Source: a virus
Direction: 5' to 3' (one strand)
Length of the DNA: 53,674 bases
Virus record (IMG/VR): IMGVR_UViG_3300037296_000160
Span: 1-53,674 of that record
Below the pieces are notes generated by a model. It searched no databases. It worked only from the letters and a program-made list of their open reading frames with translations, and had not been told where the DNA came from. Positions within the stretch are counted from its first letter, which is position 1; every line of letters begins with the position of its first letter. Both the position numbers and the translations under genes were made by a program. This document shows, piece by piece, positions 1-53,674 of the stretch.

Positions 1-426
1 TGGAAGGCGACCGCTACCTGTTCACCACCTATTCGCAGCTACAGGCCGTGAAGGGCAAAGAACCAGAGCGCCGCCCGCTTTTGCGCGCACTGGCAGGCAA
101 TGCCATGTTCCTGCTGGACGAAAGCCACGAGGCTGGCGGTCAGGCTGACACAGGCTGGAAAGACCCCGACGCGGTAGCCGACCGCGCGACGTTCATGCGC
201 GAAGTGCTGGCAATGGCAAAGGGGGCCGTGTTTTCGTCGGCCACCTACGCCAAGAACCCAACTGTCATGTCCCTCTACGCCAAGACGGACCTGTCACTCG
301 CCGTTGAAGATATCAGCGAACTAGGGGCCGCTATCGCGCTGGGCGGCGTCCCGCTGCAACAGGCCATCGCCAACATGCTTGTCGAAGCCGGTCAGTATGC
401 CCGCCGTGAACGCTCATTTGAGGGCG
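1..426. repeat. Left copy of imperfect terminal overlap
   Basis: This stretch is repeated at 53249-53674 with four substitutions (positions 62, 170, 191 and 299 here). All four fall at third codon positions of the giant open frame; three are synonymous and one exchanges Asp for Glu. It marks the contig ends of a circular or circularly permuted genome of about 53,248 bp. Confidence 0.95.
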
Positions 427-3400: not shown

Positions 3401-6400
3401 CCAGGTTCTTAGACGGGAGGGCTATCGGTCTGGCAAAGAGGTCATGGCCGCAATGGCAAATGGCACCCTAGCCGCCCGCGCCCGCGCCGATCTGACAACG
3501 CCGCCAGACGGGGGATCGACCCCGCCAGAGGGGGCAAAAGAGCGCCGCAAAAAATCGGCCGGCACGGCAACCGCCGAAAGCAAAGCGGCCAGCATCGTCA
3601 ACCGCGCCATCGACGCCAGCATGGAGTTGGCCGAGAAGGCAAAGGACGCCGCCACAAAGCAATCTGCCCGCGCGCTTCTATCGAACATGATGGATCACGG
3701 GCAGACGGGCACCTCGATCCTTGCGCTAGTGCCGGGCCGTCCGCTGTTGACGGAACTGGCGCGCAACCTGCCGTCCGCGCGCATCTACCTGCTGGCGAAA
3801 GAGGCCATGGACGCCACGCGCCAGCATTGGGCCGTGGACACCGATACCGTCGCAAAGAAGTGGCAATGGCAGGCGGTGCGCAACAAGACCGCCAATGACC
3901 AGTTTATGAGCCTGATGCACGACGCCACGCTTGCAGGGATCGACCCGGCAGAGGGGGGCATGGACCCGGCCACGCTGGAACGCTTGGTGAAAGAGGAAAC
4001 CGGGGCCGATCCGAAGGCCGACCCCGCCATCGTGCGCGCCAAGATCAAAGGCAACTTCACCGACTTTGTCGCCCGCTATCACGATCTACCCAAGCCGTTC
4101 CAAGACCTTTGGGCCGAGGTCCGCGATATGTATGGCCGTCTGGCCGACGAATGGGACAAGGCCATCATCGACAACCACGAACACGCCGTTGAGCGCGCCA
4201 TCCACAAGATGCGCGAAGAAAACGAGCGCGAGCAGGTCATCGTGGAGGCGGGCACCCTGTCCAAAAAGGACAAGGCCAAGGCCATCGAGCGCCTGCGCAA
4301 CGAAATCGCAGACGCCGAGAAGCGCGCACGGGAGAGCGGCAAGCGGCGCATGGGGGAACTGCGCGCCGCGTTCGAGAGCAACCGCACCTCAAAGCCCTAT
4401 TTCCCGCTGGCGCGCTTTGGCAATTACTACGTCACCCTCAAAGACGAGGCGGGCAAAGTCGTGTCCTTCAGCAAGTTTAAGGGCCAGAAGGAACAGGAGC
4501 GGTTTGCAGCCGAACACGAAGGCAAGTTTGAGGTCATTACCGGCGTCATGCAGCAAGACGGCAACCGTCTGGACAAGTCCGTTGACGCGGGCTTTGTGGC
4601 CGAGGTGGCAGATATTCTATCGCGCGACGGCGTGGATGATGACGTCATGGACGCGATCTGGCAGCGGTATCTGGAAACCATGCCCGATATGTCCCTGCGC
4701 AAGAGCCGCATCCACCGCAAAGGCACCGAAGGTTACACGCAAGACGCGCTGCGATCGTTCGGCAATCACATGTTCCACGGCGCGCACCAGCTTGCCCGGT
4801 TGAAGCATCAGAACGACATGCAAGACGCCCTCGATGACATGGCCGATCAGGCGAAGGCGTCCAAAGACCCCAACCGCGCCATGCACGTCGTCAATGAAAT
4901 CAGCCGCCGCCATGAGTTTACCATGTCGCCTAAAAACGCAGGCTGGACCGCGACCGCGTCTAGCTTGGCGTTTGTCTGGTATCTGGGGGCCACGCCAGCC
5001 GCAGCCATGGTCAACCTGACACAGACCACCATTATCGGCATCCCCATGATGCGCGCCCGCTACAAGAAATCCAGCACGGGCGACGTCACCCGCGAACTGG
5101 GCAGCGCATTGCGCGACTTTGGGCAGGGCAAGGGATACGCGGACAAGTCGTCCAAGCTGACCGCCAAAGAGCGCGAGGCGATGGACGCGGGCTATGATCG
5201 CGGCCTGATGGACAAGACGCAGGCCAGCGATATCGCGGGCATTGCGGAAACCGGCATCGAGTATAACCCGATCCGGTCACAGGCCATGGCAGTTATCGGC
5301 TTCATGTATCACCACGCAGAGCGCGCCAACCGGGAGGTCACATTTCTTGCGTCCTACCGCTTGGGCATCAAGGAAGGCTTGCCCCATGCCAGCGCCATCG
5401 ACCGGGCCGCAGATGCAACGTGGGATATCCATTTTGACTACCAAAACAACAGCCGTCCGCGCTTCATGCAAGACGATTTTCCCAAGGTTTTACTGACCTT
5501 TCGAGCGTTCCAAGTGAACATGATCTATCGCATGGTGCGCGACACGCACCAATCGTTGCACGGGGCCACACCGGAACTGCGCACCGAGGCGCGGCGTCAG
5601 CTTATCGGCATCACCGGGCAAATGGCGCTACATGCTGGCATCACCGGAACATGGGGCTACGGCATGGTCATGATGATCGTCGGGCTGTTCTTTAGCGCAG
5701 CCGGGGCCGACGACGAGCCAGAGCAAGCCTTGAAGAAGCTGATGGTAGGATCGACTGACCCAACCACGGCGCTGGGCCATGCGCGCCGCTTTATAGGGTC
5801 TATGGCGCTATACGGTGTTCCCGGCACCCTGACCGGCACCGCCCTGTCAGATCGCATTGGTATGCCTAACCTGTGGTTCCGTGACCCCTACAAAGACATG
5901 GAGGGCCGCGAAGCCTACACCAACTACCTGCAACAGCTTGTCGGCCCGGTGCCCGGTCTGGCGGAAAAGGGCTTTGTGGGTATGTCGCAACTGATGGACG
6001 GCAAGGTCGAGCGCGGCATCGAGAGCATGGTGCCCAAGTTTGTCCGCGACGGTATGCGGTCTGTGCGCTACCTGTCCGAAGGCGTGACCACCTACAGCAA
6101 CGAAGACCCGGTTGTAGAGCATGTATCGCCCTATCAGGCGCTTGTGCAGGCGCTGGGCCTGACCCCGGCGCAGATTGCCGAACGCTATGACACCAACAAC
6201 GCGATCAAGCGTCTGGAAGGCCGCATCGAGGACGCGCGCAGCGATACGCTGGGCACGATCCGCAAGGCGGTGCGTGACACAGGGGCACTGACACCTGACG
6301 CCGTGGACGCGCTGCACCGCTACAACGCCAAGTATCCCGAATGGATTATCGACCGGGGCACGATCAAGCGGTCACTGTCTGGCGCGCGCCGCGCATCCCA

Positions 6401-6482
6401 GAACAACACGGGCGGTATCAACATCAATGACAAGATCGCAGACCGCGTCTTGGGAAAGGTGGCCCCGACCGTCTTTGATTAA
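3..6482 (+). CDS. Giant polyvalent protein, C-terminal part (strawberry-notch helicase, zincin, LPD38)
   Basis: This is the 3' part of the gene that begins at 44941 and crosses the contig ends in the same frame. The first ATG at 48 is internal, because the frame is already open from base 3. Numbering from 44941, it covers residues about 2771-4929. It opens in the middle of the helicase, with DESH at 2809-2812 and the LGRIHRTGQ helicase-C signature near 3204, as in strawberry-notch (SNO) ATPases. A helicase-associated region follows. A zincin motif HEIVH lies at 3814-3818. A long charged helical region comes next, then a C-terminal block from about residue 4350 (helical, with NREVTFLASYRLG and SRPRFMQ) that matches my memory of LPD38, a large polyvalent-protein domain. 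Hydrophobic helices occur at nt 5640-5700. Polyvalent proteins of phages and conjugative elements are known to travel with injected DNA and counter host defences; that role here is inference. The gene ends at TAA 6480-6482, before a terminator. Confidence 0.85.
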   Translation, partial: EGDRYLFTTYSQLQAVKGKEPERRPLLRALAGNAMFLLDESHEAGGQADTGWKDPDAVADRATFMREVLAMAKGAVFSSATYAKNPTVMSLYAKTDLSLAVEDISELGAAIALGGVPLQQAIANMLVEAGQYARRERSFEGVSMALTPLDINMTVATDTIARVADIFDADMLVMQAARKDAIENLKADGHAETKDGAVGVESGDSTNFAAVIHNVVNQMLLALKVDAVADRAIQAWKDGEKPIMAVYNTNGALLDAMIEGEGLSVGDKVDLPFKVILHNYIERLRRITVKDGKNGEAIRIDLTDAQLGSRAATMLKKLHEDVDNTDFGKLSASPLDLLHDKMRAAGMKTGEITGRSRVIEDGILTARDASSAAKKRTMAAYNKGGAGGYDALIINQSGSTGFSLHATALKGNDGKQRLMIVMQADPNIDVFMQMLGRIHRTGQILLPKYEIAVTPLAAEKRGSAILMRKMASLNANTTASKDSAVTLDNVTDFLNEVGDKVMRRYLAENFDLAVRLDLDLDKENIAQKATGRMSILPPVDAERIYSEIEELYAAEIDELNRLGENPLEAQVYDWQAKEISSAVIEAGKGSSSPFDADTVMKYLSVRRLTKPYSWDEVQDRLAEAQDGITGESRVEAAAAHVGEVGTAYMHTLQDKVDALRNTWEKTRAEDDKADNTEGSTKTIKAKKAYDAAVKRFDEARTSIENTLSRLSDFEPGTAVMIGTSRGHMYGVILDLDASAMTNNPLALSKVAIRIAVADAARELRVPLSRFTGTDALTIEPAPADMVQFNFDSGQSSAREVRAVATGNLINAFARFGTGRIAFYTDENGATQTGVVMPATFDVRAELEREPVRFKTPEQVTAFLNGGDRIVDTGDGALTIKRTGYENYELTASTRAKVYYVGKAVTDITGQWTKRGSAPAKITVTSAADLNKLLAVYTDMIQPHFVTHSYKGEAREITGDALPDIKAPAGAAEKRAQPRNLRKRRDNLRRSLFMRLADTGMADEVSLQLARKIVSRTGTPLEGFQKGSVIAVAMDSANPESALDHEIVHAMRDSKLWGREGGLFGTADWRALVKQVRRQPQRLKAMQDLYPDLDSAAQMEEAVAELYADYRAGRDVDTAQGIMGRVQAMLETIGQVLRREGYRSGKEVMAAMANGTLAARARADLTTPPDGGSTPPEGAKERRKKSAGTATAESKAASIVNRAIDASMELAEKAKDAATKQSARALLSNMMDHGQTGTSILALVPGRPLLTELARNLPSARIYLLAKEAMDATRQHWAVDTDTVAKKWQWQAVRNKTANDQFMSLMHDATLAGIDPAEGGMDPATLERLVKEETGADPKADPAIVRAKIKGNFTDFVARYHDLPKPFQDLWAEVRDMYGRLADEWDKAIIDNHEHAVERAIHKMREENEREQVIVEAGTLSKKDKAKAIERLRNEIADAEKRARESGKRRMGELRAAFESNRTSKPYFPLARFGNYYVTLKDEAGKVVSFSKFKGQKEQERFAAEHEGKFEVITGVMQQDGNRLDKSVDAGFVAEVADILSRDGVDDDVMDAIWQRYLETMPDMSLRKSRIHRKGTEGYTQDALRSFGNHMFHGAHQLARLKHQNDMQDALDDMADQAKASKDPNRAMHVVNEISRRHEFTMSPKNAGWTATASSLAFVWYLGATPAAAMVNLTQTTIIGIPMMRARYKKSSTGDVTRELGSALRDFGQGKGYADKSSKLTAKEREAMDAGYDRGLMDKTQASDIAGIAETGIEYNPIRSQAMAVIGFMYHHAERANREVTFLASYRLGIKEGLPHASAIDRAADATWDIHFDYQNNSRPRFMQDDFPKVLLTFRAFQVNMIYRMVRDTHQSLHGATPELRTEARRQLIGITGQMALHAGITGTWGYGMVMMIVGLFFSAAGADDEPEQALKKLMVGSTDPTTALGHARRFIGSMALYGVPGTLTGTALSDRIGMPNLWFRDPYKDMEGREAYTNYLQQLVGPVPGLAEKGFVGMSQLMDGKVERGIESMVPKFVRDGMRSVRYLSEGVTTYSNEDPVVEHVSPYQALVQALGLTPAQIAERYDTNNAIKRLEGRIEDARSDTLGTIRKAVRDTGALTPDAVDALHRYNAKYPEWIIDRGTIKRSLSGARRASQNNTGGININDKIADRVLGKVAPTVFD

Positions 6483-24496: not shown

Positions 24497-24822
24497 TGCC
24501 CGCCGCGATCAAGATGAACAGCATGGTCAAAGCTGTAGACCTTGCCACAGGCAAAGAGAGCGAGAGCGTTGTAAGCTGGGGGGTGTTGCCGCCCGCGCCA
24601 GACCGGTGCCAAACCTGCGCCGTGGACCACACGCCAGACCAGCCGCATGACGCGGGTTCGCTTTTCTACCAATTCACGTTCGGCAATGAGCATGGCCGCG
24701 CCCCGACGTGGACCGACGCCATGGCGCATTGCACCGCCGCTGTGCGCGACGAGTGGACCGACAACCTGCGCGCCATGGGCGTGGATATCCCAAAGATGGA
24801 GGGAAACGACGATGCAAGCTGA
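24496..24822 (+). CDS. Conserved-type phage protein with Cys pair
   Basis: A 108-residue protein with CQTCAVDHTPDQPHDAGSLF and GRAPTWTDAMAHC. These motifs recall a small protein family frequent in phages of proteobacteria, function unknown. The CxxC plus later His/Cys could bind zinc. The end overlaps the clamp gene start by 11 bases. Confidence 0.7.
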   Translation: MPAAIKMNSMVKAVDLATGKESESVVSWGVLPPAPDRCQTCAVDHTPDQPHDAGSLFYQFTFGNEHGRAPTWTDAMAHCTAAVRDEWTDNLRAMGVDIPKMEGNDDAS

Positions 24823-25957
24823 CCCGATAGCCCAAGCCACGATAACCACCAAGGACGCGCGCCGCATTGCCGCCGCCATGGGGGGTGTCATCGAGCGCCG
24901 CAACACGATCCCGGTGCTGGGGTGTCTGCGCTTCAAGATCGCCAAGGGCGGTATCAGCGTTACCGGTACAGACCTCGATATACGGATGACCCTGCACATA
25001 GAGGCCGAGACGTCGGGCGAAGCTGTGATCCTGATAGACGCCGCCCGGTTTGCTGGCTTTGCTGGCGCTGGGCTGGGCGACATAGTGCTAAAGGTCATCC
25101 CCCCGGCCAAGGGGTCACAATCGCAGATGAACGTCATCGAGTTATCGAGCGGCGATATCACCCTGCAACTGCTGGACCGCCTGCCACCAGAGGACTTTCC
25201 GACGTTCAACCAGCACTTGAAGGGCGCAAAGGCTTTCCCGGCCACGCAAAGCGACCTGCTGCGCGTCTTCAAGTTGGCAAGCCACTGCATCAGCACCGAG
25301 GAAACCCGCTACTATCTGAACGGCATATACCTGTCCGAGAAGCCAGACGGCACCACCCTGCGCGGCGTGGCGACCGACGGGCACCGCTTGGCCTGCATCG
25401 ACACAGGCGTAGAGACGCAAGGCGGGATGGATAAGACCGAGGGCAAGGGGGCGATCCTGCCCCGCAAGACGGTAGACCTGCTGAAAAGCCTGATGACCGA
25501 GGGGGCCAACGATCCTGTCAACATGCGGCTAACCAACACCCACTGCGCGTTTGTCTGGGAAGGTGTCGAGATAGATACCAAGATGATCGACGGCACCTAC
25601 CCAGACTATACCCGCGTGATCCCCAAGGGGGATGAAACAGGCCGCGTCCAGCTATCCACGGACACGGTGCGCCGGGTTATGAGCATTGGCCGCGCGCTGG
25701 GCGGGGGCACGTCCGTCGCCTGCGCCCTCGATCTGGACGCCAACACCATGACCATCACAGGGATGGAAGGGGAGAAGGTGGCCGCGCCTATGAGCGCAAC
25801 AGGCAAGGGCCGCATAGGCTTCAACTTGAAGTATCTGGCCCAACTGGCGCGCGCCGTCCCGAACATAACGATGCAGGTCATCGAGGCCAACGGTCCCGCG
25901 CGTTGCTTTGGTGACGATCCGCTTGCCATGTTCGTCCTGATGCCGATGCGGGTTTAA
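24812..25957 (+). CDS. dnaN: DNA polymerase III beta sliding clamp
   Basis: A 381-residue protein, close to bacterial DnaN length, starting at ATG 24812 behind GGAGGG. TDLDIRMTL, VATDGHRLACIDTGV and the C-terminal FVLMPMRV are signature DnaN sequences, and three clamp repeats can be traced. It should form a ring that tethers host DNA polymerase III. No phage DNA polymerase or clamp loader is present in the genome, so it must work with host proteins. The frame stays open upstream to 24647 but that part overlaps another gene and lacks a ribosome site. Confidence 0.92.
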   Translation: MQADPIAQATITTKDARRIAAAMGGVIERRNTIPVLGCLRFKIAKGGISVTGTDLDIRMTLHIEAETSGEAVILIDAARFAGFAGAGLGDIVLKVIPPAKGSQSQMNVIELSSGDITLQLLDRLPPEDFPTFNQHLKGAKAFPATQSDLLRVFKLASHCISTEETRYYLNGIYLSEKPDGTTLRGVATDGHRLACIDTGVETQGGMDKTEGKGAILPRKTVDLLKSLMTEGANDPVNMRLTNTHCAFVWEGVEIDTKMIDGTYPDYTRVIPKGDETGRVQLSTDTVRRVMSIGRALGGGTSVACALDLDANTMTITGMEGEKVAAPMSATGKGRIGFNLKYLAQLARAVPNITMQVIEANGPARCFGDDPLAMFVLMPMRV

Positions 25958-27628: not shown

Positions 27629-28381
27629 ATGATGAATTTACCCGATTTCAGCGGCAACCTTTACGGCTATGCGCGCGTGTCCACCGAGGACCAGAACCTA
27701 AACCTTCAGCTTGACGCCTTACGGGCGGCAGGCATCCCGGATAGCCGCATCTTCACAGAGAAGGTGTCTGGCACGTCTAAGAAGCGGCCCAAGCTGGAAC
27801 TCGTGCGCAAGATCATGCGCGAGGGTGATGCGCTGTGCGTCTGGCGTCTGGACCGCGTAGGGCGGTCTGTGGTGGCCGTGGTAGAGTTTGTCGAAGGTCT
27901 TAGCGCTGACGGCATCTTGTTCCGGTGCCTGACTGAACCAATCGACACTACCACACCGACCGGAAAGCTGATGCTGCACATGATGGCGGCGCTGGCAGAG
28001 TTCGAGCGCAACATGATCGCTCAGCGGACGCGGGCCGGAATGGACGCGGCACGGTCGCGGGGCGTCAAGATGGGGCCGAAACACCGCATCTTGGATTGTC
28101 CCAAGCGGCTGGCGCGCTTCATTGAGTTGTGGGCCGATGGGCGTATCCCGTCCGGCGACATGAGCGCAAATGATGTGTGGGCCGATCTGAATACAGTGCC
28201 GTCCAAGCTGCCAGAGATGAAGGCACAAAGCAGCTATAGCAACTGGAAGGCACGTCTATTCGCGGGGTTTGAAGCATCGCTAGATCAGGCGATTAGCAAG
28301 GGCGACGACAAGGCCGCGAAGGTAAAGCCGCTGTTCCTGCAATGGCGCAAAGGTATCCTAGAGCAGAAAGGCAAAAGCTAA
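27629..28381 (+). CDS. Small serine recombinase (resolvase/invertase family)
   Basis: About 250 residues from ATG 27629; upstream in-frame starts at 27545, 27584 and 27620 overlap the palindromes or a -35-like box, and none has a clear ribosome site. The catalytic domain is complete: YGYARVSTEDQ contains the nucleophilic Ser, VSGTSKKRPKL and WRLDRVGRS carry the catalytic arginines, and the long helix LAEFERNMIAQRTRAGMDAARS leads to the DNA-binding part. The C-terminal ~85 residues do not show the usual short Hin-type HTH. It likely resolves plasmid multimers; an integration role is not supported. Confidence 0.88.
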   Translation: MMNLPDFSGNLYGYARVSTEDQNLNLQLDALRAAGIPDSRIFTEKVSGTSKKRPKLELVRKIMREGDALCVWRLDRVGRSVVAVVEFVEGLSADGILFRCLTEPIDTTTPTGKLMLHMMAALAEFERNMIAQRTRAGMDAARSRGVKMGPKHRILDCPKRLARFIELWADGRIPSGDMSANDVWADLNTVPSKLPEMKAQSSYSNWKARLFAGFEASLDQAISKGDDKAAKVKPLFLQWRKGILEQKGKS

Positions 28382-29202
28382 TGCGTGGATATACCCTGCC
28401 AGCCGGAAACGTGCAGATTAGCTTTAGCGGCGGGCGCACGTCTGCATACATGCTGCACCAGATACTTGCGGTAAACGGCGACCTGCCAGAACGAGTGCAA
28501 GTCGTGTTTTCAAACACCGGGCGCGAAATGGACGGGACGCTTGATTTTGTGCAAGAGTGCGCCGAACGCTGGAATATTCGTGTGGTATGGGTTGAGGATG
28601 CCAAACGGGGCGGTGACGCTCTTTTTGACGTGGTGTCGCACAATTCGGCCAGCCGTTTCGGTGAACCTTTCAAGCGGCTAATAGAGCGCAAGAAAGCCTG
28701 CCCAGATCAGTCTAAGCGGTTCTGCACAGAGCATCTAAAGATCCTGCCCGCTCGGCGTTATCTTATATCGTTGGGCTGGAAGGAGTGGACGAACGCAGTA
28801 GGCATCCGTGCCGATGAACCGCACCGTCTGAAACCATCCCCCGACAAGCGGGTTAGGAAGTGGTATCCGCTGGAAGATGTAGACAAGCCTGCGGTGATGC
28901 GGTTTTGGGCCGCGCAACCTTTCGATCTGCGCATTGAGCCAGGTTATGGGAATTGCGATGGCTGTTTTATGAAGTCAGAGGCGCAGCTTGCGGCGCTATG
29001 CCGTGACTACCCTGATCGGGCTGAATGGTGGGAAGATATGGAGCGCAAGGCGTCTGCTTTGACCGCGAGTGCTGGCGGCGCGCGGTTCCGTGATCAATTC
29101 ACGCGGGCGCAACTGCGCGACACTGTAGATAGGCAGGGCGATTTCCTTTTTTCCACCGAAGAAGGCTGGTGCCAAAAGAACCACGGCGAATGCACCGGAT
29201 GA
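28381..29202 (+). CDS. PAPS-reductase-like (PP-loop) protein
   Basis: A 273-residue protein starting at ATG 28381, overlapping the recombinase stop (TAATG). ISFSGGRTSAYML is the PP-loop of the adenosine nucleotide alpha-hydrolase fold; FSNTGREMDGTLDFV, FCTEHLKI and GNCDGCF are typical of phage PAPS-reductase-family proteins. True PAPS reductase needs an ECGxH catalytic motif, which is not visible, so sulfate reduction is doubtful. DNA phosphorothioation (DndC-like) or another thiol-dependent nucleotide chemistry is possible. Confidence 0.8.
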   Translation: MRGYTLPAGNVQISFSGGRTSAYMLHQILAVNGDLPERVQVVFSNTGREMDGTLDFVQECAERWNIRVVWVEDAKRGGDALFDVVSHNSASRFGEPFKRLIERKKACPDQSKRFCTEHLKILPARRYLISLGWKEWTNAVGIRADEPHRLKPSPDKRVRKWYPLEDVDKPAVMRFWAAQPFDLRIEPGYGNCDGCFMKSEAQLAALCRDYPDRAEWWEDMERKASALTASAGGARFRDQFTRAQLRDTVDRQGDFLFSTEEGWCQKNHGECTG

Positions 29203-44940: not shown

Positions 44941-47900
44941 ATGGCCATTAAACCGCGTTCGTTGTCCAACGTGTTCAGCCAAAGCCCCATGCAAGAGGCT
45001 TTGACCACTAAACCGAAAACCCAAAAGACCACGTCGCCCCTCAAGGGATTTGAGGGCATGGCAAAGCAAACGGGCGTCCCGGTCAACATCCTCATGGCCG
45101 AGGCAGAGCGCGCAGGCACCGATGACCCCCGCATGATCGCCACCCGCGCCGCAGCGTGGCAATCGCGCCTGACGTCTGGCGCACAAGTGCCCGATATCGC
45201 CGCCGAACTGGTGCCCGAAGACACGACCACGTTCCTTAACCGCGCCATCGAGATTGACCGCGCCACCTATGGCAGCGAAATCGAGGTTCCCGACGCGGCC
45301 CCGGCCACCCCGGCAAAGGGTGAAGCTGGCGGCATCGAGAACACGGCGCGCACCGTTGGCGGGGCGATGACACGTTTTGGTGCAAGCACCCTCAAGGGCA
45401 TCGGGATTGCAACCGACACCGTGGCCGACGTTGCCACCCTTGGGCAATCGCGCCGCGACATTGACCAGTTTCGTCGCGATGCGGGCTTGCGGGACAAAGA
45501 CGCACCGGGGCCGCAGCGCGGCGACTTCTTCACCGACGCCATGGATATCGCAGCCGAACCCCTGCGCGATGCAGCCGACGGCATCGAGGCGGGCCGCAGC
45601 AGCGATCTAAACGAGGCCATTGCAGCAACGTCGCTAGAGGGCGAACTGTTCGACCCGCGCACTTGGGAAGTATCCGAGGACGCCACCTTGCGCGGTTTCG
45701 CGCACAAAGGTCTGGCCGTTCTGGGCGACCTGCTACCCATCGTTGGTGCCGCCGTTGTCACCCGCAGCCCCGCCGTTGGCGGTGTGCTGGGCGGTCTGTC
45801 CGCTGGCGGTGCCGCTGGACAGGATGCGCGCGACCGCGTGTATGCCGCAGCAGAGGAACGCGACGAAAGCGGCGTGTCCGCGCTTGAGAAAAGCGACAAG
45901 TTTCAAGAACTGGTAGAGCGCGGCCTATCCACGGATGAAGCCACCGAACAGCTTGCAGTCAATGCCGAGCGTTGGGCCGGACAGGTTGCAGGCGTCATTG
46001 GCGGCGCAGGCGGCGTCGCCACCACTAAGATCATGGCCCCCCTTGAAGGCAAGGCGCTGACAAACAGCGTTGCAGGCCGCGTCGGTCTGGCAGCGGTAGA
46101 AGAAGGCGGGCAGGAAGTCGCGGAAGGCGTGGGGCAGCGCATGGCGACCAACGCCGCGACCGGCCTTGAAGACAACGTCATGGACGGCACCCTAGAGGAG
46201 TTTGCGCTTGGCGGCGTGGCTGGCGGTGCCCTTGGCGGCGCATCGACTGCCTTTGACCGGGCCACCCCGCCCGCAGAGCCTACGCCCCCTGCCCTGCCCG
46301 CGCCCGATCTGGTGACGCCGCCCCCGTCCGCATACGGGCCAGACGGCAACCTGCTACCCGAAAACACCGCACCCCCTGCGCGCCCCAAAGGCCGCTTGGA
46401 GGCGATGATGGACGCGACCATGCCGCCTATGGCCATGCCCGCGCCGACCCTGCCTACACCCGCTGAAACACCCGCCCCAGCCGCAAACCCTGCCCCCCAG
46501 GATTTAATGGACGACGGCGCAGTGCTTGAAGACCTGCCGCCCCGCGACTTTGTGGGCGAACGGCAGGCGGCACAGGCGCGCTTGGCCCAACTGGACGCCA
46601 ACGACCGCCGCAATGGCGCGACCACCGAGAGCCTTGAGGCCCGCAACAAGGTCCGCGCCGAACTGGCAGAACTGCCGGTTGATACTGTGCCCATGGGCAC
46701 CTTTGACGCAGGCACCGACCCAGACAGCGGCAAAATCATCACCGCGACCGTGGCCGACGCAGGACCATTTGACTACGAAACCACATACCCATCCCCTGAT
46801 ATCGACCTCTACACCGCAGCCGCGCGCGCGGGCATGATCCTGCCCACCACGCCGCAGGAAACGGCCATGTTCGTTGAACGGGGCTTGGGAGCGTTGACGG
46901 ATGCTGTTTTGGATCAGCGCGCCGCAAAGGCCGGAAGCCCAAAGGCAAAGCGGGCGCAAAAAGCGATTGACGGCATCGTGGCAGACCTTGCTGCGATCTA
47001 TAAGCCCGAAGACGTGGCCGACATGCAGGCCGCAGTCACAGGCTACGCCGACAGCATCGAGGCCAGCGCACAGCCCGCCCCGGCAGACGTCCCGGCCACA
47101 GACGCACCGGCAGAGACACCCGCCCCGTCCGAGGCTGACCTGCGCGCACAGATCGCCGCCGCGACCAATGCCGCGCTGGATGAAGCTGACGCCGCCGAGG
47201 ACGCCGCCAAGCCGTCCAAGCCAATGCCCGCGACCGCTATGCCGCCATCGAGCGTGACGAACAGCGTCAAGATGCTGGCCGACGCTAACTTTTTCCCCAA
47301 GGATGGATCGCCCAACACCTATGAGCGCACCGTGGGCGGCAAAGGCCAGCGTATCGAGCGCGTCAAAGACGGCTGGCGTCTGATGGAGGACGGCAAGGTC
47401 ATCGCCAAAGCCAAGGGCGAAGACGGCATCCTGTCCCTGTCCAACTTCCTGCAAGAGCCAGATGCGGCTATGCCGCCGACCGCCATGCCGCCCGCAACCC
47501 TGCCAGCGGCCAAGCCAGACGCCAAACCTGCGCCTATGCCCGCAACGTCCATGCCGCCGCCCACCGTGCAGCCAGACGCCAAGCCCAAGGAAGATATCAA
47601 CGACCTTATGGCCGACGCGCGCAAACGCCGCGCGGATCGCACTGCGCAGGTGGCGGACCTGTCCAAGACAGATGACCCCGTCCGCATGACGAACAAGGCG
47701 GGCGATTTGGCCGTTCTGGTATCCCCCGCAGCCGACCGCCCCGGCAAATGGCGCGCAACCTACATGGGCGCGGACAAGAAGCCGTCGGGCCATGTTGACG
47801 CGGAGACGAAAGCCGAAGCCCTTGAGCGCGCCTTTGAGGACGGGTTTACCGTGGCCGACCAATCGACCACTAAACCACAAGACGACGCGACCACGGACAA

Positions 47901-50900
47901 GGCAGCAATGCCCGCAACCGCCATGCCGCCCCCGACCGTCAACGCACCCGACCCGAACCCCACCGACGGCCAGAAGGAAGCAGGCAACTACCGCAAGAAG
48001 CACGTCCGCTGGAATGGGCTGGATATCAGCATCGAAACCGCCAAGGGCCAAGAGCGCACCGGCACCGGGCCAGACGGCACACGCTGGGCCGTGACCATGC
48101 CCGCCGACTATGGCGACATCAAAGGCACCACAGGCGCAGACGGCGACCCGCTCGATATCTACATGGGCGAACTGGAAGGCAGCGACACCGTTGTCATCGT
48201 CAACCAAGTGGACGAGCGCACAGGCGCGTTTGACGAACACAAGATCATCGTGGGCACGGGCAGCACCGCCGCCGCGCTGCGCATGTATGAGGAAGGTTTC
48301 AGCGACGGCAAAGGCAAGAGCCGTATCGGATCGTATAGCACGACGTCGCAGGCAGGCTTGAAGGCGTGGATTGAAACCGCCGACCACACCAAGCCCACCG
48401 AACCCGTCAAAGCAAAACCAAAAGCCGACGAAACCGCGAAACCACAAGACGACGCGACCACGGACGACGCGGACGCGGACGGCAGCGATGACACCGCCGC
48501 ACCCAAGGGCGACAAGATTGAAGACTTTGGCGAGAAGATTGGCGGCGCGCGCAAGGACAAGGCGCGGCGCATGGCCGAAGACCTCGCCACTGATATCGAC
48601 GCGGCCAGCATGACCATGACCGAGGCGTTCCCCGTGCCCGACTATGAGGCACTTGCAGCCAGCGGTGTCCCGCACAACAGCCTTGCCATGATCGCAGCCC
48701 TGCGCGCCGCAATCCCGCGCAAGACCCGGCGCAACCGCCGTGGCTGGGCCACAGACGTAGAGGCATCGCGCAAGATCGTCGCGGCCATCGTCGCAGGCGA
48801 GTTGGAAGGCGATACCGTATCTGCGCAAGCCAACGCACAGGTCAGCAACAGCGGGGGATGGAGCGGGCTTGGCGAAGGCACCATTGAAGCCTTTCAGAAA
48901 CTACCGACCTCGATGCTGCACGAAGCGTCTACGCTGGCCGTGGTGCGCGCGACCTTTGGCCGGTCTGACGACGGCAAGACCAACACCATCGTCAGCTACA
49001 CCGTTGGGCCATTGAGCAAATGGAGCGGTTTGCGCGTCACCACCACGGACGACGCTGCAAAGGAGCTGATGCGCCTTGTCGCGCGCGCCCGCGATGACCG
49101 GGCCAGCAAGGCAGGCACCGGGGGCCGCAAGCCGGTCAAGCTGGGCGTCTACAAGCGCACAAGCGACGAGACGTGGTTTGTTGGTTTCAAGGTTTCGGAC
49201 GTCCTGCCGCTATCGCCTAACTTTGAAAGCGCCGCCGCAGCGCGCACCTACATGAACGACAACACCGAGGCGCTGCAAAAGGCCGCTGATGACCTGCGCG
49301 ACGGGCCGCGAGAGCGCACCGACCGCAACCGCAAGCGCAAGGGGCCAGCACACCGGGAGGGCGACGTTACCCCCGAAATGTTCACGGATGCTTTCGGTTT
49401 CCGTGGTGTAGAGTTTGGCAACTGGAACAACGCCAAGGACCGCCAGAACAGCCTAAACGACGCCTACGACGCATTGACCGACCTTGCGGGCTTGCTGGAC
49501 CTGCCAACCAAAGCCATGTCGCTGGACGGCACCCTTGGCCTTGCGTTCGGCGCGCGCGGCACCGGGGGCAAGAACCCCGCCGCAGCCCACTATGAGCCTG
49601 ACAAGATCGTCATCAACCTGACTAAGCGGTCTGGCGCAGGATCGCTGGCCCACGAATGGTTTCATGCAATAGACCACCACCTTGCGCGCATCGACGCCGC
49701 AGAAGGTGGATCGTCCGCAGCCCTGACCGGGGCGACGGCGCGCAATCGCAGCGAATACATGTCTGACCGTCGGTCATCGGGCGCTGGGCGCACCAAGGAC
49801 GCAGCCGAGGCGTTCAACGCCCTGCGCAAAGCCCTGACCGCCGATCACCCGTGGTTCAAGCGCAGCAAGGAAGCCGACAAGGGCCGCTCAAAGCCCTACT
49901 TTGCGACCACCATCGAACTGGCTGCGCGTTCGTTTGAGAAATACGTCATCGACCGCCTGACAACCCGCGACATGGTCAACGACTACCTTGCCAACATCGA
50001 CGGCATGAGCGGCGCATATCCATCCACCCGCGAAATGGCGAACACGGATATCCGCACCGCATGGGATGCTGCGCTGGCGTCGATCACCACCACCTTGGAC
50101 GCAGGCACCGACAACGTGCCGACCTTGCCCAATGCAGACACAAGCCGCCTGTATGAAGGGCCAGAGGCGGGCGAAATCTGGGAAAGCCCCGAAGGCCGCA
50201 AGAAGATCGAGAGCCGCGACGGCGATACCTTCTACATCAATTCGCCCGACGGCAGCACCGAAGTCATGTCAGGGGCCGAGGTAGACGAACAGATTGCCGC
50301 CGACCGGGCGGCGTTGGAAGCCGCCACGCAGGCAAAGAAGGAAGCGCGCACCGAGGCGTATCAGGATCAAACCGCCCGCAACACGGAATGGGAGGATCGC
50401 GCCCGCACCGAGATTGCCAAGTTTGAGGCCGACGCCAAGCGCAAACCCGGCGCAGTGCAATCCAAGCTGTTCGGCAAGACCTACAACTTCCGCGACTATG
50501 GTATGCTGTCACGCGGCGGCATGATGATCGCGCGACTAGATGAAGGCTGGCGCGTCAGCGAGGGCGGCGACCGCCGATTGTCCCGCAACCTGCGCGGACC
50601 CAAAGGCGAAGTCTACAGCGCGGACACATGGACCAAGGGCGGTCTGGATTTTGCCGAATGGTATGGCAATATCCTCGATGCGCGCGCCAAGTCCAAGGTA
50701 GCACCGGCAAAGCCCAAGGCGAAGGCAAAGACCGAGGACGAACTGCGCGCCGAAATCAACGCCGCCACGGTCGCGGCGCTGGATGAAGCCGACGCCGCAG
50801 AAGGGCAGGGGACCGACACCACAAAACCACAAGACCAACAGGCCACGGGACCACGCACGGCAGGTCAAGCCGCAGCGAGCGCGGCAGGCAACCTTGGCAC

Positions 50901-53674
50901 CGCAGCCGATGAAGCCATGACCGCGCTGCGTAAGCTGTTTGGCGATCCTAACACGCTGAACATGGGGCCAGCGTTTTCGCGGGACACATACCGCAACGCC
51001 AAGCCGCACTTTGACGCCGTCGTCCGGTCCTTGGGCGCAGCTAAGACCGATCTGGCAGACCTCGCCCGCGCGCTGGTCCGGTTTCTGTCCAAGCAAGACA
51101 TGGACAAGGACGCCCGCCGCGCGATGCAGCCCTACCTCGAAGAATACTTGTTTGAGGTGCAGTCCAAGGCACACGACCCGTTCAACCCACAGGAGGAAGC
51201 CGCCGATGCAGCCAGCACAGACGACACGCCGAAAGGTGACGCGCCTGATACTGAAACCCAAGAGCCGAGTGAAGTGCCGGTATCGCCGGAACAGCCCGTG
51301 GAACCACCGGTTGCCGATGGAGGGATGCAGCCCGTCACAGACGCCGCGCTTGCCCGTTTCCGTGAGGGCGATGGATTTGCAAACATCGTGCAAGCCCGCA
51401 AGCTGGCAGGCGAAACGCTGGACCGCCCGATCACCGAGGCCGATTACAAGGCCGTCGAAGAAGCTATCGAGGAAGCTATCGTTGTCCGCGCCCGCGAACT
51501 AATCGCAGAAGGCCGCGACCCACAGGCGACATATCAGTCCCTTGTGGACCTCTACGCCATGCAGCCCCTATTGGCGCAGCGCACGTCCAACAGCATGGAA
51601 CTGCAAGCCTACTCAACCCCGGCACCGCTGGCCTATCTGGCGTCCCAGCTTGCAGGCGTGACAAACGAAAACACCGTATTGGAGCCGACCGCAGGCATGG
51701 GGATGCTGACCATTGGCGCAGATGCGTCCAAGGTCATCGCCAACGAACTGGACCCAGAGCGCGCGGCCACGATTAGCCGCACCACACCGGGGGCGACTGT
51801 CACCGCACTGGACGCCACAAAGGCCACGTTTGCGCCCGCTGACGTCGTCATCGCTAACCCGCCGTTTGGCGGCGTGTTCGTGGACGGCAAGCGCCAGCAA
51901 TGGCCCATGGGGCAAACCAAGACGCGCGAAGTGGATCACGCGATTGCGTGGCGCGCGCTGGACGCCATGCCCGACAACGGCACCGCCGTCTTGATCCTTG
52001 GCGGGGTCAAGAAGCAACTGACAGGCGATGACCGCGTCAAAGCCTACCGCAGCGCCGCCAAGGGCAGCTTCTACGCCAACCTCTACGACGCCTATAACGT
52101 GGTGGATCACTTCACCGTGGACGGCGATCTATACAAGCGGCAGGGCGCAGGCTGGCCCGTGGACGTCATCGTTATCCGTGGCCGGGGCAAATCGCTGAAC
52201 CCCTTGCCACAGAAGGAAGCACCCCCCATCTTGAACACATGGGGCGAATTAGAAGGAAAATTGGACCTTGCTGATAGTTTGGGCACCGCCGAAGTCACCG
52301 CCGACCGCACTGGTAGCGGTCAACCTACCGGAAACGGGGGAGCGCAAGCTGACCCTGCTGGCGTTCGAGGGTCTAATGCTGACCAAAATGGCGGAGTTGA
52401 TACAACACGCCGACCCAGCGGAACTGACACGGATGCAGGAACTAGAACCGGCAATCCGTCTGCCGAACAGCAAAGACCCGCTAACGCTGGCGACGTCGAT
52501 ACTGGATCAGACGGACGAACGGGACGCGCTGGGGCTGAACCCGACAGCGTTCCCGGTAACGCTGACCAAAGCGGATCACAGCGAGGAAATGGAAGCAGCG
52601 ATGCAGGAGCAAACGCTGGACGACCTGCTGACAGCACTCGGAGCGTAGCCAAGCGCGCGGCCAACACAGAGGCCGAAAGCGCGTTCCAAGTCCAATACGA
52701 ACCCCGCTCGAAAGCCACCTTTGCCGTGGGCACCCTTGTCCCGGTCAAGATGCAAGACGCCATGAAAAAGGCGCTAGACAGCATCGAGAAGCGCAACGGC
52801 GACATTGACGCCTTTGTCGCCAAGTCGCTGGACTATGACCTTGATGCGATGCTGGGCACCGATACCAAGCCCGGTTACTTTTCTGCCGAACAGGTCGATG
52901 CGCTGGCTATGGCCATCGACAACGTGGGGCAGGGCAAGGGCTTCATCATTGGCGACCAGACCGGCGTGGGCAAAGGCCGCTTTGTTGCCGCCATGCTGCG
53001 CTTTGCAGAGAAGCAGGGCATCACACCTATCTTTGTGACCAAAGACCCCGGCTTGTTTGGCGACATGGTCCGCGACCTGCGCGACATTGGCGAAGACCAA
53101 GCATCGAGCGGCATTTTCCCGACCAACACCACCCTGCGCGGCAGCGGCGCACTGCCCCTGTCTGACAACGCAGGCGACACGCTGGAAAGCCGCAAGCCCG
53201 CAGAGCATAAGAAGGCCGTAGCCGAAATGCTGGCAAGCGGTCAGCTTGTGGAAGGCGACCGCTACCTGTTCACCACCTATTCGCAGCTACAGGCCGTGAA
53301 GGGCAAAGAGCCAGAGCGCCGCCCGCTTTTGCGCGCACTGGCAGGCAATGCCATGTTCCTGCTGGACGAAAGCCACGAGGCTGGCGGTCAGGCTGACACA
53401 GGCTGGAAAGACCCCGAAGCGGTAGCCGACCGCGCGACCTTCATGCGCGAAGTGCTGGCAATGGCAAAGGGGGCCGTGTTTTCGTCGGCCACCTACGCCA
53501 AGAACCCAACTGTCATGTCCCTCTACGCCAAGACGGACCTGTCACTAGCCGTTGAAGATATCAGCGAACTAGGGGCCGCTATCGCGCTGGGCGGCGTCCC
53601 GCTGCAACAGGCCATCGCCAACATGCTTGTCGAAGCCGGTCAGTATGCCCGCCGTGAACGCTCATTTGAGGGCG
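44941..53674 (+). CDS. Giant polyvalent protein, N-terminal part (InPase-like, LPD5, LPD1, adenine methyltransferase, helicase start)
   Basis: The frame runs without a stop from ATG 44941 (AAGGAG nine bases upstream) to the contig end and continues at base 3, for 4,929 residues in total. Domains seen: hydrophobic ejection-like helices near 250-290 and 345-400; Pro-rich linkers; an inorganic-pyrophosphatase-like polyvalent domain (~1015-1150); LPD5 (GEKIGGARKD, from ~1190); LPD1 (FGNWNNAKDRQ, LGLAFGARG) ending in zincin HEWFH at 1571-1575; an N6-adenine methyltransferase with LEPTAGMGML at 2247 and NPPF at 2306-2309; a Gly/Asp-rich linker (~2438-2569); and helicase Walker A GDQTGVGKGR at 2671-2680 and DESH at 2809. 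The combination matches polyvalent proteins such as DarB-type antirestriction factors. A defence-countering, injected role is inferred. Confidence 0.88.
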   Translation, partial: MAIKPRSLSNVFSQSPMQEALTTKPKTQKTTSPLKGFEGMAKQTGVPVNILMAEAERAGTDDPRMIATRAAAWQSRLTSGAQVPDIAAELVPEDTTTFLNRAIEIDRATYGSEIEVPDAAPATPAKGEAGGIENTARTVGGAMTRFGASTLKGIGIATDTVADVATLGQSRRDIDQFRRDAGLRDKDAPGPQRGDFFTDAMDIAAEPLRDAADGIEAGRSSDLNEAIAATSLEGELFDPRTWEVSEDATLRGFAHKGLAVLGDLLPIVGAAVVTRSPAVGGVLGGLSAGGAAGQDARDRVYAAAEERDESGVSALEKSDKFQELVERGLSTDEATEQLAVNAERWAGQVAGVIGGAGGVATTKIMAPLEGKALTNSVAGRVGLAAVEEGGQEVAEGVGQRMATNAATGLEDNVMDGTLEEFALGGVAGGALGGASTAFDRATPPAEPTPPALPAPDLVTPPPSAYGPDGNLLPENTAPPARPKGRLEAMMDATMPPMAMPAPTLPTPAETPAPAANPAPQDLMDDGAVLEDLPPRDFVGERQAAQARLAQLDANDRRNGATTESLEARNKVRAELAELPVDTVPMGTFDAGTDPDSGKIITATVADAGPFDYETTYPSPDIDLYTAAARAGMILPTTPQETAMFVERGLGALTDAVLDQRAAKAGSPKAKRAQKAIDGIVADLAAIYKPEDVADMQAAVTGYADSIEASAQPAPADVPATDAPAETPAPSEADLRAQIAAATNAALDEADAAEDAAKPSKPMPATAMPPSSVTNSVKMLADANFFPKDGSPNTYERTVGGKGQRIERVKDGWRLMEDGKVIAKAKGEDGILSLSNFLQEPDAAMPPTAMPPATLPAAKPDAKPAPMPATSMPPPTVQPDAKPKEDINDLMADARKRRADRTAQVADLSKTDDPVRMTNKAGDLAVLVSPAADRPGKWRATYMGADKKPSGHVDAETKAEALERAFEDGFTVADQSTTKPQDDATTDKAAMPATAMPPPTVNAPDPNPTDGQKEAGNYRKKHVRWNGLDISIETAKGQERTGTGPDGTRWAVTMPADYGDIKGTTGADGDPLDIYMGELEGSDTVVIVNQVDERTGAFDEHKIIVGTGSTAAALRMYEEGFSDGKGKSRIGSYSTTSQAGLKAWIETADHTKPTEPVKAKPKADETAKPQDDATTDDADADGSDDTAAPKGDKIEDFGEKIGGARKDKARRMAEDLATDIDAASMTMTEAFPVPDYEALAASGVPHNSLAMIAALRAAIPRKTRRNRRGWATDVEASRKIVAAIVAGELEGDTVSAQANAQVSNSGGWSGLGEGTIEAFQKLPTSMLHEASTLAVVRATFGRSDDGKTNTIVSYTVGPLSKWSGLRVTTTDDAAKELMRLVARARDDRASKAGTGGRKPVKLGVYKRTSDETWFVGFKVSDVLPLSPNFESAAAARTYMNDNTEALQKAADDLRDGPRERTDRNRKRKGPAHREGDVTPEMFTDAFGFRGVEFGNWNNAKDRQNSLNDAYDALTDLAGLLDLPTKAMSLDGTLGLAFGARGTGGKNPAAAHYEPDKIVINLTKRSGAGSLAHEWFHAIDHHLARIDAAEGGSSAALTGATARNRSEYMSDRRSSGAGRTKDAAEAFNALRKALTADHPWFKRSKEADKGRSKPYFATTIELAARSFEKYVIDRLTTRDMVNDYLANIDGMSGAYPSTREMANTDIRTAWDAALASITTTLDAGTDNVPTLPNADTSRLYEGPEAGEIWESPEGRKKIESRDGDTFYINSPDGSTEVMSGAEVDEQIAADRAALEAATQAKKEARTEAYQDQTARNTEWEDRARTEIAKFEADAKRKPGAVQSKLFGKTYNFRDYGMLSRGGMMIARLDEGWRVSEGGDRRLSRNLRGPKGEVYSADTWTKGGLDFAEWYGNILDARAKSKVAPAKPKAKAKTEDELRAEINAATVAALDEADAAEGQGTDTTKPQDQQATGPRTAGQAAASAAGNLGTAADEAMTALRKLFGDPNTLNMGPAFSRDTYRNAKPHFDAVVRSLGAAKTDLADLARALVRFLSKQDMDKDARRAMQPYLEEYLFEVQSKAHDPFNPQEEAADAASTDDTPKGDAPDTETQEPSEVPVSPEQPVEPPVADGGMQPVTDAALARFREGDGFANIVQARKLAGETLDRPITEADYKAVEEAIEEAIVVRARELIAEGRDPQATYQSLVDLYAMQPLLAQRTSNSMELQAYSTPAPLAYLASQLAGVTNENTVLEPTAGMGMLTIGADASKVIANELDPERAATISRTTPGATVTALDATKATFAPADVVIANPPFGGVFVDGKRQQWPMGQTKTREVDHAIAWRALDAMPDNGTAVLILGGVKKQLTGDDRVKAYRSAAKGSFYANLYDAYNVVDHFTVDGDLYKRQGAGWPVDVIVIRGRGKSLNPLPQKEAPPILNTWGELEGKLDLADSLGTAEVTADRTGSGQPTGNGGAQADPAGVRGSNADQNGGVDTTRRPSGTDTDAGTRTGNPSAEQQRPANAGDVDTGSDGRTGRAGAEPDSVPGNADQSGSQRGNGSSDAGANAGRPADSTRSVAKRAANTEAESAFQVQYEPRSKATFAVGTLVPVKMQDAMKKALDSIEKRNGDIDAFVAKSLDYDLDAMLGTDTKPGYFSAEQVDALAMAIDNVGQGKGFIIGDQTGVGKGRFVAAMLRFAEKQGITPIFVTKDPGLFGDMVRDLRDIGEDQASSGIFPTNTTLRGSGALPLSDNAGDTLESRKPAEHKKAVAEMLASGQLVEGDRYLFTTYSQLQAVKGKEPERRPLLRALAGNAMFLLDESHEAGGQADTGWKDPEAVADRATFMREVLAMAKGAVFSSATYAKNPTVMSLYAKTDLSLAVEDISELGAAIALGGVPLQQAIANMLVEAGQYARRERSFEG
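45004..45035 (+). repeat. 8-bp-phased ACCAC array (giant gene, 5' end)
   Basis: ACCAC-TAA-ACCGA-AAA-CCCAA-AAG-ACCAC-GTC: four registers at period 8, the outer two perfect and the inner two degenerate. It lies in codons 22-32 of the giant gene. Confidence 0.45.
46764..46787 (+). repeat. Degenerate 8-bp-phased ACCAC array
   Basis: ACCAT-TTG-ACTAC-GAA-ACCAC-ATA, with CCCAT in the next register. One perfect box, the others one mismatch each. Confidence 0.35.
47858..47897 (+). repeat. 8-bp-phased ACCAC array, five units
   Basis: ACCAA-TCG-ACCAC-TAA-ACCAC-AAG-ACGAC-GCG-ACCAC-GGA. Three boxes are perfect and two have one mismatch. It encodes the linker TTKPQDDATTD just before the pyrophosphatase-like domain of the giant protein. 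Confidence 0.65.
48417..48464 (+). repeat. 8-bp-phased ACCAC array, six units
   Basis: Boxes in register: ACCAA, CCGAC, ACCGC, ACCAC, ACGAC, ACCAC, with spacers AAG, GAA, GAA, AAG, GCG, GGA. It encodes the linker between the pyrophosphatase-like domain and LPD5. Confidence 0.6.
49173..49196 (-). repeat. Degenerate 8-bp-phased ACCAC array, minus orientation
   Basis: On the plus strand GTGGT-TTG-TTGGT-TTC-AAGGT-TTC, so in minus orientation ACCTT, ACCAA and ACCAC at period 8. It lies in a folded part of the giant protein (encoding WFVGFKVS), not a linker. Confidence 0.4.
50818..50857 (+). repeat. 8-bp-phased ACCAC array, five units
   Basis: ACCAC-AAA-ACCAC-AAG-ACCAA-CAG-GCCAC-GGG-ACCAC-GCA. 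Three perfect boxes and two with one mismatch, in the linker after LPD1. Confidence 0.65.
52268..52648 (+). CDS. Nested overlapping gene candidate inside the giant gene (+1-shifted frame)
   Basis: A 126-residue frame starting at TTG 52268 with AAGGA (52253-52257) ten bases upstream and ending at TAG 52646-52648. It lies wholly within the Gly/Asp-rich linker between methyltransferase and helicase of the giant protein. Here the nested frame shows the high-G/C third-position pattern typical of real genes in this genome, while the giant frame shows unusually A/T-rich third positions. The product looks globular and helical (LLAFEGLMLTKMAELIQHAD, QEQTLDDLLTALGA). No family is recognised. The alternative is chance, because the giant frame's G-rich first positions become third positions in this frame. 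Confidence 0.4.
   Translation: MLIVWAPPKSPPTALVAVNLPETGERKLTLLAFEGLMLTKMAELIQHADPAELTRMQELEPAIRLPNSKDPLTLATSILDQTDERDALGLNPTAFPVTLTKADHSEEMEAAMQEQTLDDLLTALGA
53249..53674. repeat. Right copy of imperfect terminal overlap
   Basis: Repeats window positions 1-426 at an offset of 53,248 bp with four substitutions at 53310, 53418, 53439 and 53547. The frame is preserved, so the giant gene reads straight through the join. Confidence 0.95.

Follow-up and report, generated by a model that had tools for sequence, protein, structure and literature searches.

The viral record IMGVR_UViG_3300037296_000160 of IMG/VR, analyzed here over its full length of 53,674 bases (the window), carries a giant polyvalent gene in which a linker joins an adenine methyltransferase domain to a helicase domain. 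The open reading frame (ORF) at positions 52268 to 52648, which lies in the +1 frame of this linker, is very probably a genuine overprinted gene, and we predict from sequence comparison that it is expressed. The gene had not been described before, and gene-finding programs had missed it. It is the conservation tests, and not the openness of the frame, that carry the case for it. A preliminary description of the same DNA had proposed a nested gene here on the basis of about 130 open codons preceded by AAGGA-N10-TTG. Its coordinates proved correct to the base, with 131 codons from stop to stop and 126 counted from the TTG, and the arrangement of the start signal was confirmed at 52253–52270. The features concerned are as follows.

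52268–52648, plus strand: nested gene in the +1 frame (putative), with TTG start at 52268–52270 and 126 codons plus the stop TAG at 52646–52648
52253–52257, plus strand: Shine-Dalgarno sequence AAGGA, 10 bases before the TTG, at the site that matches AAGGAG of relatives
52250–52252, plus strand: TAG stop in the +1 frame, shortly before the nested start
52189–52692, plus strand: main-frame linker of low complexity that hosts the nested gene, with a ratio of nonsynonymous to synonymous substitutions (dN/dS) in the main frame of the overlap of about 1.1 (18 pairs of relatives)

Conservation, initiation signal and selection

Relatives were collected with the methyltransferase-linker-helicase segment, as 2 close relatives, 43 further viral loci and then 80 loci. 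A +1 ORF was found in the same linker of about 88 non-redundant relatives. It occupied the same place in 41 of the 42 loci of the first batch that have a linker, and in this first set it mostly started about 26 codons past the end of the methyltransferase motif. In a held-out test, a profile built from the first set only was run on 47 new non-redundant loci in six frames. The profile matched 43 of them, each in the +1 frame and none in another frame, and the remaining 4 contained divergent +1 ORFs at the same place. By comparison among relatives the nested stop is also conserved, in most cases some 50 bases ahead of the first conserved motif of the helicase, and the main frame forms an uninterrupted low-complexity linker in every relative. 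Neither of the signs by which the preliminary description expected an error to reveal itself, a nested frame broken in relatives or a homologue whose main-frame protein aligns with the nested product, was seen.

The nested gene also occurs on plasmids, namely one from Thalassospira and others from cyanobacteria, of which pAQ6 of Picosynechococcus sp. PCC 7002 is an example. The helicase-family gene annotated on pAQ6 (L142:1890-6052) contains the nested ORF at 2578-3084, corresponding to about 101013-100507 on the complement strand of pAQ6; directly upstream of this helicase-family gene are genes annotated as hypothetical and as a RelE/ParE-like toxin. In the plasmid records inspected, annotation covers the host gene alone. 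No nested match for the window peptide or for that of locus L075 was found among cultured phages.

Start codons over 83 loci were ATG in 80, GTG in 2 and TTG in 1 (the window), and a Shine-Dalgarno-like sequence preceded the start in 79. This sequence is coded by a main-frame Leu-Lys-Glu-Lys motif, whose Lys-Glu was written as AAGGAG in 43 of 45 cases at the start site versus 47 of 322 elsewhere in the same genes. In 67 of the 83 loci the nested start has a +1 stop no more than 5 codons ahead of it, often directly before the ATG. Given that a ribosome that had slipped into the +1 frame earlier would terminate at such a stop, new initiation is the simplest route into the nested frame, and the TAG at 52250–52252 likewise argues against entry by frameshift in the window. 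To judge by sequence, the nested gene thus has an initiation signal of its own, consisting of a conserved Shine-Dalgarno sequence and start codon.

Selection on the nested peptide was assessed with profiles trained on relatives less than 50% identical and with 200 synonymous shuffles per locus that preserve the main protein. The real nested peptide outscored all 200 shuffles in 38 of 41 loci, and that of the window scored 31.2 bits compared with 5.1 for its best shuffle. Five cyanobacterial or Thalassospira plasmid loci likewise outscored their shuffles with an independent profile. Over 18 disjoint pairs of relatives, differences at main-frame codon positions 1, 2 and 3 amounted to 23, 16 and 62% in the flanks versus 45, 29 and 26% in the overlap (chi-square 556), with main-frame position 1 corresponding to nested-frame position 3. 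The suppression of synonymous change in the main frame that the preliminary description had put forward as a check was thus apparent in the substitutions, which move from the third to the first codon position. When sites in the same pairs were scored by their effect in both frames, dN/dS was about 0.50 for the nested frame and about 1.09 for the main-frame linker, values that are uncorrected counts on related sequences and of which the direction is clear and the exact size is not. Purifying selection was therefore found on the nested frame beyond the constraint of the host frame. By these counts, the linker is best described as a near-neutral spacer and the nested gene as the constrained one.

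Base composition changes at the same place. The main frame across the overlap is rich in Gly, Asp, Thr, Ser and Arg, and its GC fractions at the three codon positions are 0.71/0.69/0.42 in the overlap versus 0.64/0.45/0.75 in the flanks, whereas those of the nested frame are 0.69/0.42/0.71. The nested frame thus has the codon-position profile usual for the genome just where the third-position GC (GC3) of the main frame drops. Within the codons of 44941–53673, windows of 50 codons with a GC3 below 0.55 occur only at 52201–52710. Over 41 loci, main-frame GC3 is 0.72 in the flanks but 0.40 in the overlap, where nested-frame GC3 is 0.77. These values bear out the Gly/Asp/Thr low complexity and lowered GC3 of the main frame, as well as the high GC3 of the nested frame, that had been noticed from the window alone, and the conservation, start-signal and selection tests support the reading of the ORF as an overprinted gene.

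Several points weigh against this reading. The loci share ancestry, and the counts given above are therefore not independent. The start in the window is the weakest of the set, being the sole TTG and having a spacing of 10 bases. For the Bacteroides phage locus L004 and the divergent loci L021 and L033, the nested ORFs do not reach significance on sequence alone. Some host modules, described below, lack the nested gene.

Host gene and linkage

The nested gene lies in a gene with the following extent and flanking domains.

44941–53673, plus strand: giant polyvalent gene that reaches the record end without a stop and continues at 3–6482, for a total of about 4,930 codons
51580–52188, plus strand: adenine methyltransferase domain, in the main frame upstream of the linker, with YSTP... 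and IANPPFG motifs and matches to PHROG DNA methyltransferases
52693–53673, plus strand: strawberry-notch/SNF2-type helicase domain, in the main frame, with PF13872 (AAA_34) from about 52867

The giant gene is uninterrupted across the ends of the record. The repeat of about 425 bases at the two ends (1–425 and 53249–53673) is nearly perfect, 4 mismatches being present over 423 positions, and a circular or permuted genome, together with variation between strains, is therefore probable. The domains of the giant gene are inorganic-pyrophosphatase-like, LPD5, LPD1, adenine methyltransferase and AAA_34/strawberry-notch helicase domains. The encoded polypeptide thus contains an adenine methyltransferase followed by an SF2/SNF2-type helicase, as is characteristic of DarB-like proteins, and PHROG 10089 ("DarB-like antirestriction") matches the giant ORF in both of its parts. 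Other products of the phage are a P22-type portal, internal virion proteins and a Phage_capsid_3 head protein; positions 24647–25957 and 28342–29202 encode a protein like the DNA polymerase III beta clamp and one with a PAPS-reductase domain.

When the nested protein itself served as the query, 52 viral loci were recovered, and all 51 of those that were interpretable lay inside a continuous methyltransferase-linker-helicase ORF. For proteobacterial genomes, counts come from searches with alignment A3 only, the narrow alignment A7 having missed a known carrier. The A3 search of about 1,100 such genomes gave matches only in Rubellimicrobium thermophilum and one other genome. In R. thermophilum DSM 16684 (L002), the helicase sequence gives way from about position 4297 to an array of repeats; in translation (SSPRVRGT / VIPACAGNT) these resemble CRISPR repeats, and they may stem from an insertion or an assembly join. 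The other genome contains a solo nested copy (L061:1480-1863, the same as L202, on contig C29 of G743 at about 5423–5806). This copy is intact, has 120 codons and its own Shine-Dalgarno sequence, and lies on an alphaproteobacterial contig; its homology to locus L030 is confined to the nested gene. A search of the same genome for a methyltransferase-helicase found none. A type I HsdM-like gene is located about 4 kb from the solo copy on the opposite strand.

The host module was also found without the nested gene, in the Acinetobacter phage locus L005 and in several plasmid relatives, those of Vogesella, Bordetella, Pseudomonas, Cupriavidus, Burkholderia and Persicobacter. In the host-gene tree, relatives without the linker gene fall outside the main carrier clade, and the carriers occupy one part of the tree. 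The exception is the ORF of the Bacteroides phage (L004), which clusters with Persicobacter and in which nested similarity is not significant. On the Persicobacter plasmid (L054:1255-4883), methyltransferase and helicase are separate genes with a 4-base overlap and no nested gene, possibly an ancestral or a split state.

The nested protein and its possible role

Members of the nested family comprise about 88 to 198 amino acids (mean, 125), with a mean net charge of −7.7 and a median isoelectric point of 4.5; the window member is acidic, with a net charge of −11. Residue conservation over 82 sequences revealed an NH2-terminal W-x-P, a helix with L..R and a COOH-terminal helix. Structure models were obtained with AlphaFold from 37 nested sequences, the L004 row being excluded from the alignments. 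The predicted local distance difference test score (pLDDT) was 92.8 and the predicted template modeling score (pTM) 0.87 for the member at L035, and the corresponding values for the window member were 81.3 and 0.74. The nested product is thus predicted to be a compact acidic alpha/beta protein of about 125 amino acids, and it looks soluble and globular.

Searches of Pfam, PHROGs, NCBIfam and PADLOC gave no profile match common to several members, with matches of single members only (best E, 7e-4), and Foldseek gave no match in PDB or BFVD at E ≤ 0.001 (best VIA-align Z, 3.2). Weak structural matches, to helical domains of the pyrin/CARD/FLIP type, were scattered, with Z 3.2 and E above 8. A Klebsiella phage match (E 0.2–0.8) concerned the NH2-terminal part of a different protein of 284 amino acids that scored 3.5 bits with the profile, and it was taken as chance. 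Comparison of the nested profile with P1 Ulx, Hdf and DdrA detected no sequence homology (best score, 2.9 bits). Judged from these searches, the nested protein appears to belong to no known family.

We propose that ribosomes would bind the internal Shine-Dalgarno sequence within the giant gene and initiate in the +1 frame, and that an acidic protein of about 125 amino acids would be made from bases that also encode the methyltransferase-helicase linker. Translation from within the linker would place this second protein beside the nascent methyltransferase-helicase. DarB-like methyltransferase-helicases appear to be carried in the virions of related phages and are thought to be injected to shield the DNA from host restriction. 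Given that the nested gene is almost always inside one host gene, and on the same mRNA, its product may be a dedicated small partner of the DarB-like enzyme, whether as an assembly partner, a packaging adaptor or a regulator, a role for and against which we see the balance as level.

Somewhat less probable, and still deserving of weight, is that the nested gene is real but that its protein has a function unconnected with the methyltransferase-helicase, such as that of a counter-defence or host-takeover factor, with the linker merely tolerating the gene. The intact solo copy with its Shine-Dalgarno sequence near the HsdM-like gene speaks for such action, as does the frequent action of small acidic proteins of phages as inhibitors of host enzymes. 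The solitary position of this copy, with neither methyltransferase nor helicase attached, weakens the idea of a strict partner. On the other hand, nesting in the same host gene at 51 of 51 interpretable loci, and the restriction of carriers other than L004 to one part of the host-gene tree, argue against independent action and for a partner of the host enzyme.

Other explanations would deny the nested gene a functional product of its own. It is very improbable that internal translation is regulatory, serving ribosome traffic or pausing between domains, and that its product is dispensable: the start signal is indeed the most conserved nucleotide feature, but selection extends along the whole nested frame, including the motifs at both ends of the protein. 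A compensated double frameshift in the main gene, the competing explanation in the preliminary description, or programmed frameshifting would make the shifted frame part of the giant protein. The presence of the genome's usual GC3 in the nested and not the main frame would fit, but the constant +1 relation and uninterrupted main frame in all relatives, the upstream +1 stops followed by a start codon with a Shine-Dalgarno sequence, and the nested frame's own stop ahead of the helicase motifs make such events hardly credible. Just as hard to credit is a functionless chance frame, left open by a disordered Gly/Asp/Ser/Arg linker without codons that create +1 stops. Main-protein-preserving synonymous shuffles do leave the +1 frame open over the nested length, in 34% of draws from the window and in a mean of 38% across 41 loci, since a linker poor in Val, Ile, Leu, Phe and Met makes few +1 stops, and openness was for this reason set aside as weak evidence for the gene; however, only 0 to 4% of shuffles remain open in the AT-rich cyanobacterial loci, and we count chance as already refuted by the shuffle and substitution tests, together with the conserved peptide, start, Shine-Dalgarno sequence and stop and the confidently predicted fold.

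Origin and comparison with known systems

The preliminary description regarded a free linker as an ideal host for a nested gene. The linker is indeed near-neutral, but the implied host-first direction may be backwards, given that evolution of the linker protein is roughly neutral, with a sequence that tracks the nested gene. It is conceivable, though we lean slightly against it, that the nested gene is the older one, having been a partner gene between separate methyltransferase and helicase genes that were then fused by read-through in the other frame. The near-neutral linker and the high GC3 of the nested frame fit a nested-first order, which is unproven. Codon usage, as an indicator of frame age, gave a correlation of 0.35 for the nested and 0.05 for the main frame of the window, with the nested value exceeding the main value in only 47 of 83 loci, and the two frames have the same known distribution, neither of which favors one order of origin.

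As a natural example, the locus would be a clean one, with a near-neutral spacer in one frame and a selected gene in the other. The protein family extends from phages of Pseudomonadota to cyanobacterial plasmids and is unannotated because it lies wholly inside another gene; it is a candidate for an added component of giant virion-borne antirestriction proteins. The drop in GC3 in the linker, the codon bias at the Shine-Dalgarno sequence and the shifted substitution periodicity together provide a test applicable to other giant phage proteins, and the presence of a carrier in the laboratory cyanobacterium Picosynechococcus sp. PCC 7002 (pAQ6) makes expression directly testable.

P1 DarB and the giant proteins of Bcep22-like phages are similar to the host module; virion presence and protection have been reported for P1 DarB, and virion presence only for JC1 gp69. 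Passages on DarB-like polyvalent proteins (PMC5512222) and on gp69 of the Bcep22-like phage JC1 (PMC9144972) describe the same type of host gene, an adenine methyltransferase-SF2/SNF2 ATPase fusion in a giant protein, and the JC1 passages report detection of gp69 in virions. The nested gene is not mentioned in the methylase-helicase section of PMC5512222, in its passages on frames, overlaps or linkers, or in the JC1 passages of PMC9144972. According to PMC12810830, the Dar proteins of P1 are ejected along with the DNA, which they protect against type I restriction. P1 Ulx (PMC12810830; record AF234172) is likewise a small protein encoded beside darB and is linked to the same antirestriction activity, an analogy of function only; it is specified by a separate gene downstream of darB and has no sequence similarity to the nested profile. 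P1 iddB, an ORF within the Dar-system gene ddrB, was considered as a parallel and rejected, given that it is antisense to ddrB and that no relation was found.

The spanin genes Rz/Rz1, as described in the abstracts of PMC5295617 and PMC6139136, also comprise a small gene embedded in a longer one in another frame and are widespread in phages, but they encode membrane and lipoprotein lysis partners, whereas the nested product described here is encoded in a giant gene of the antirestriction type. In hepatitis B virus, the spacer of the polymerase overlaps preS/S (PMC8227390, PMC9093120), and one proposal (PMC8227390) places a short primordial gene between two domains that were at first encoded separately and whose later fusion ran through the spacer. 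As in the linker studied here, the spacer is disordered, evolves fast, separates two enzyme domains and contains a second gene in another frame; the virus and protein are unrelated, however, and the host here is a gene of a double-stranded DNA phage or plasmid with a bacterial internal Shine-Dalgarno sequence. If a nested-first origin is true, part of a giant injected protein would be the "shadow" of another gene, a phage counterpart of the hepatitis B polymerase model.

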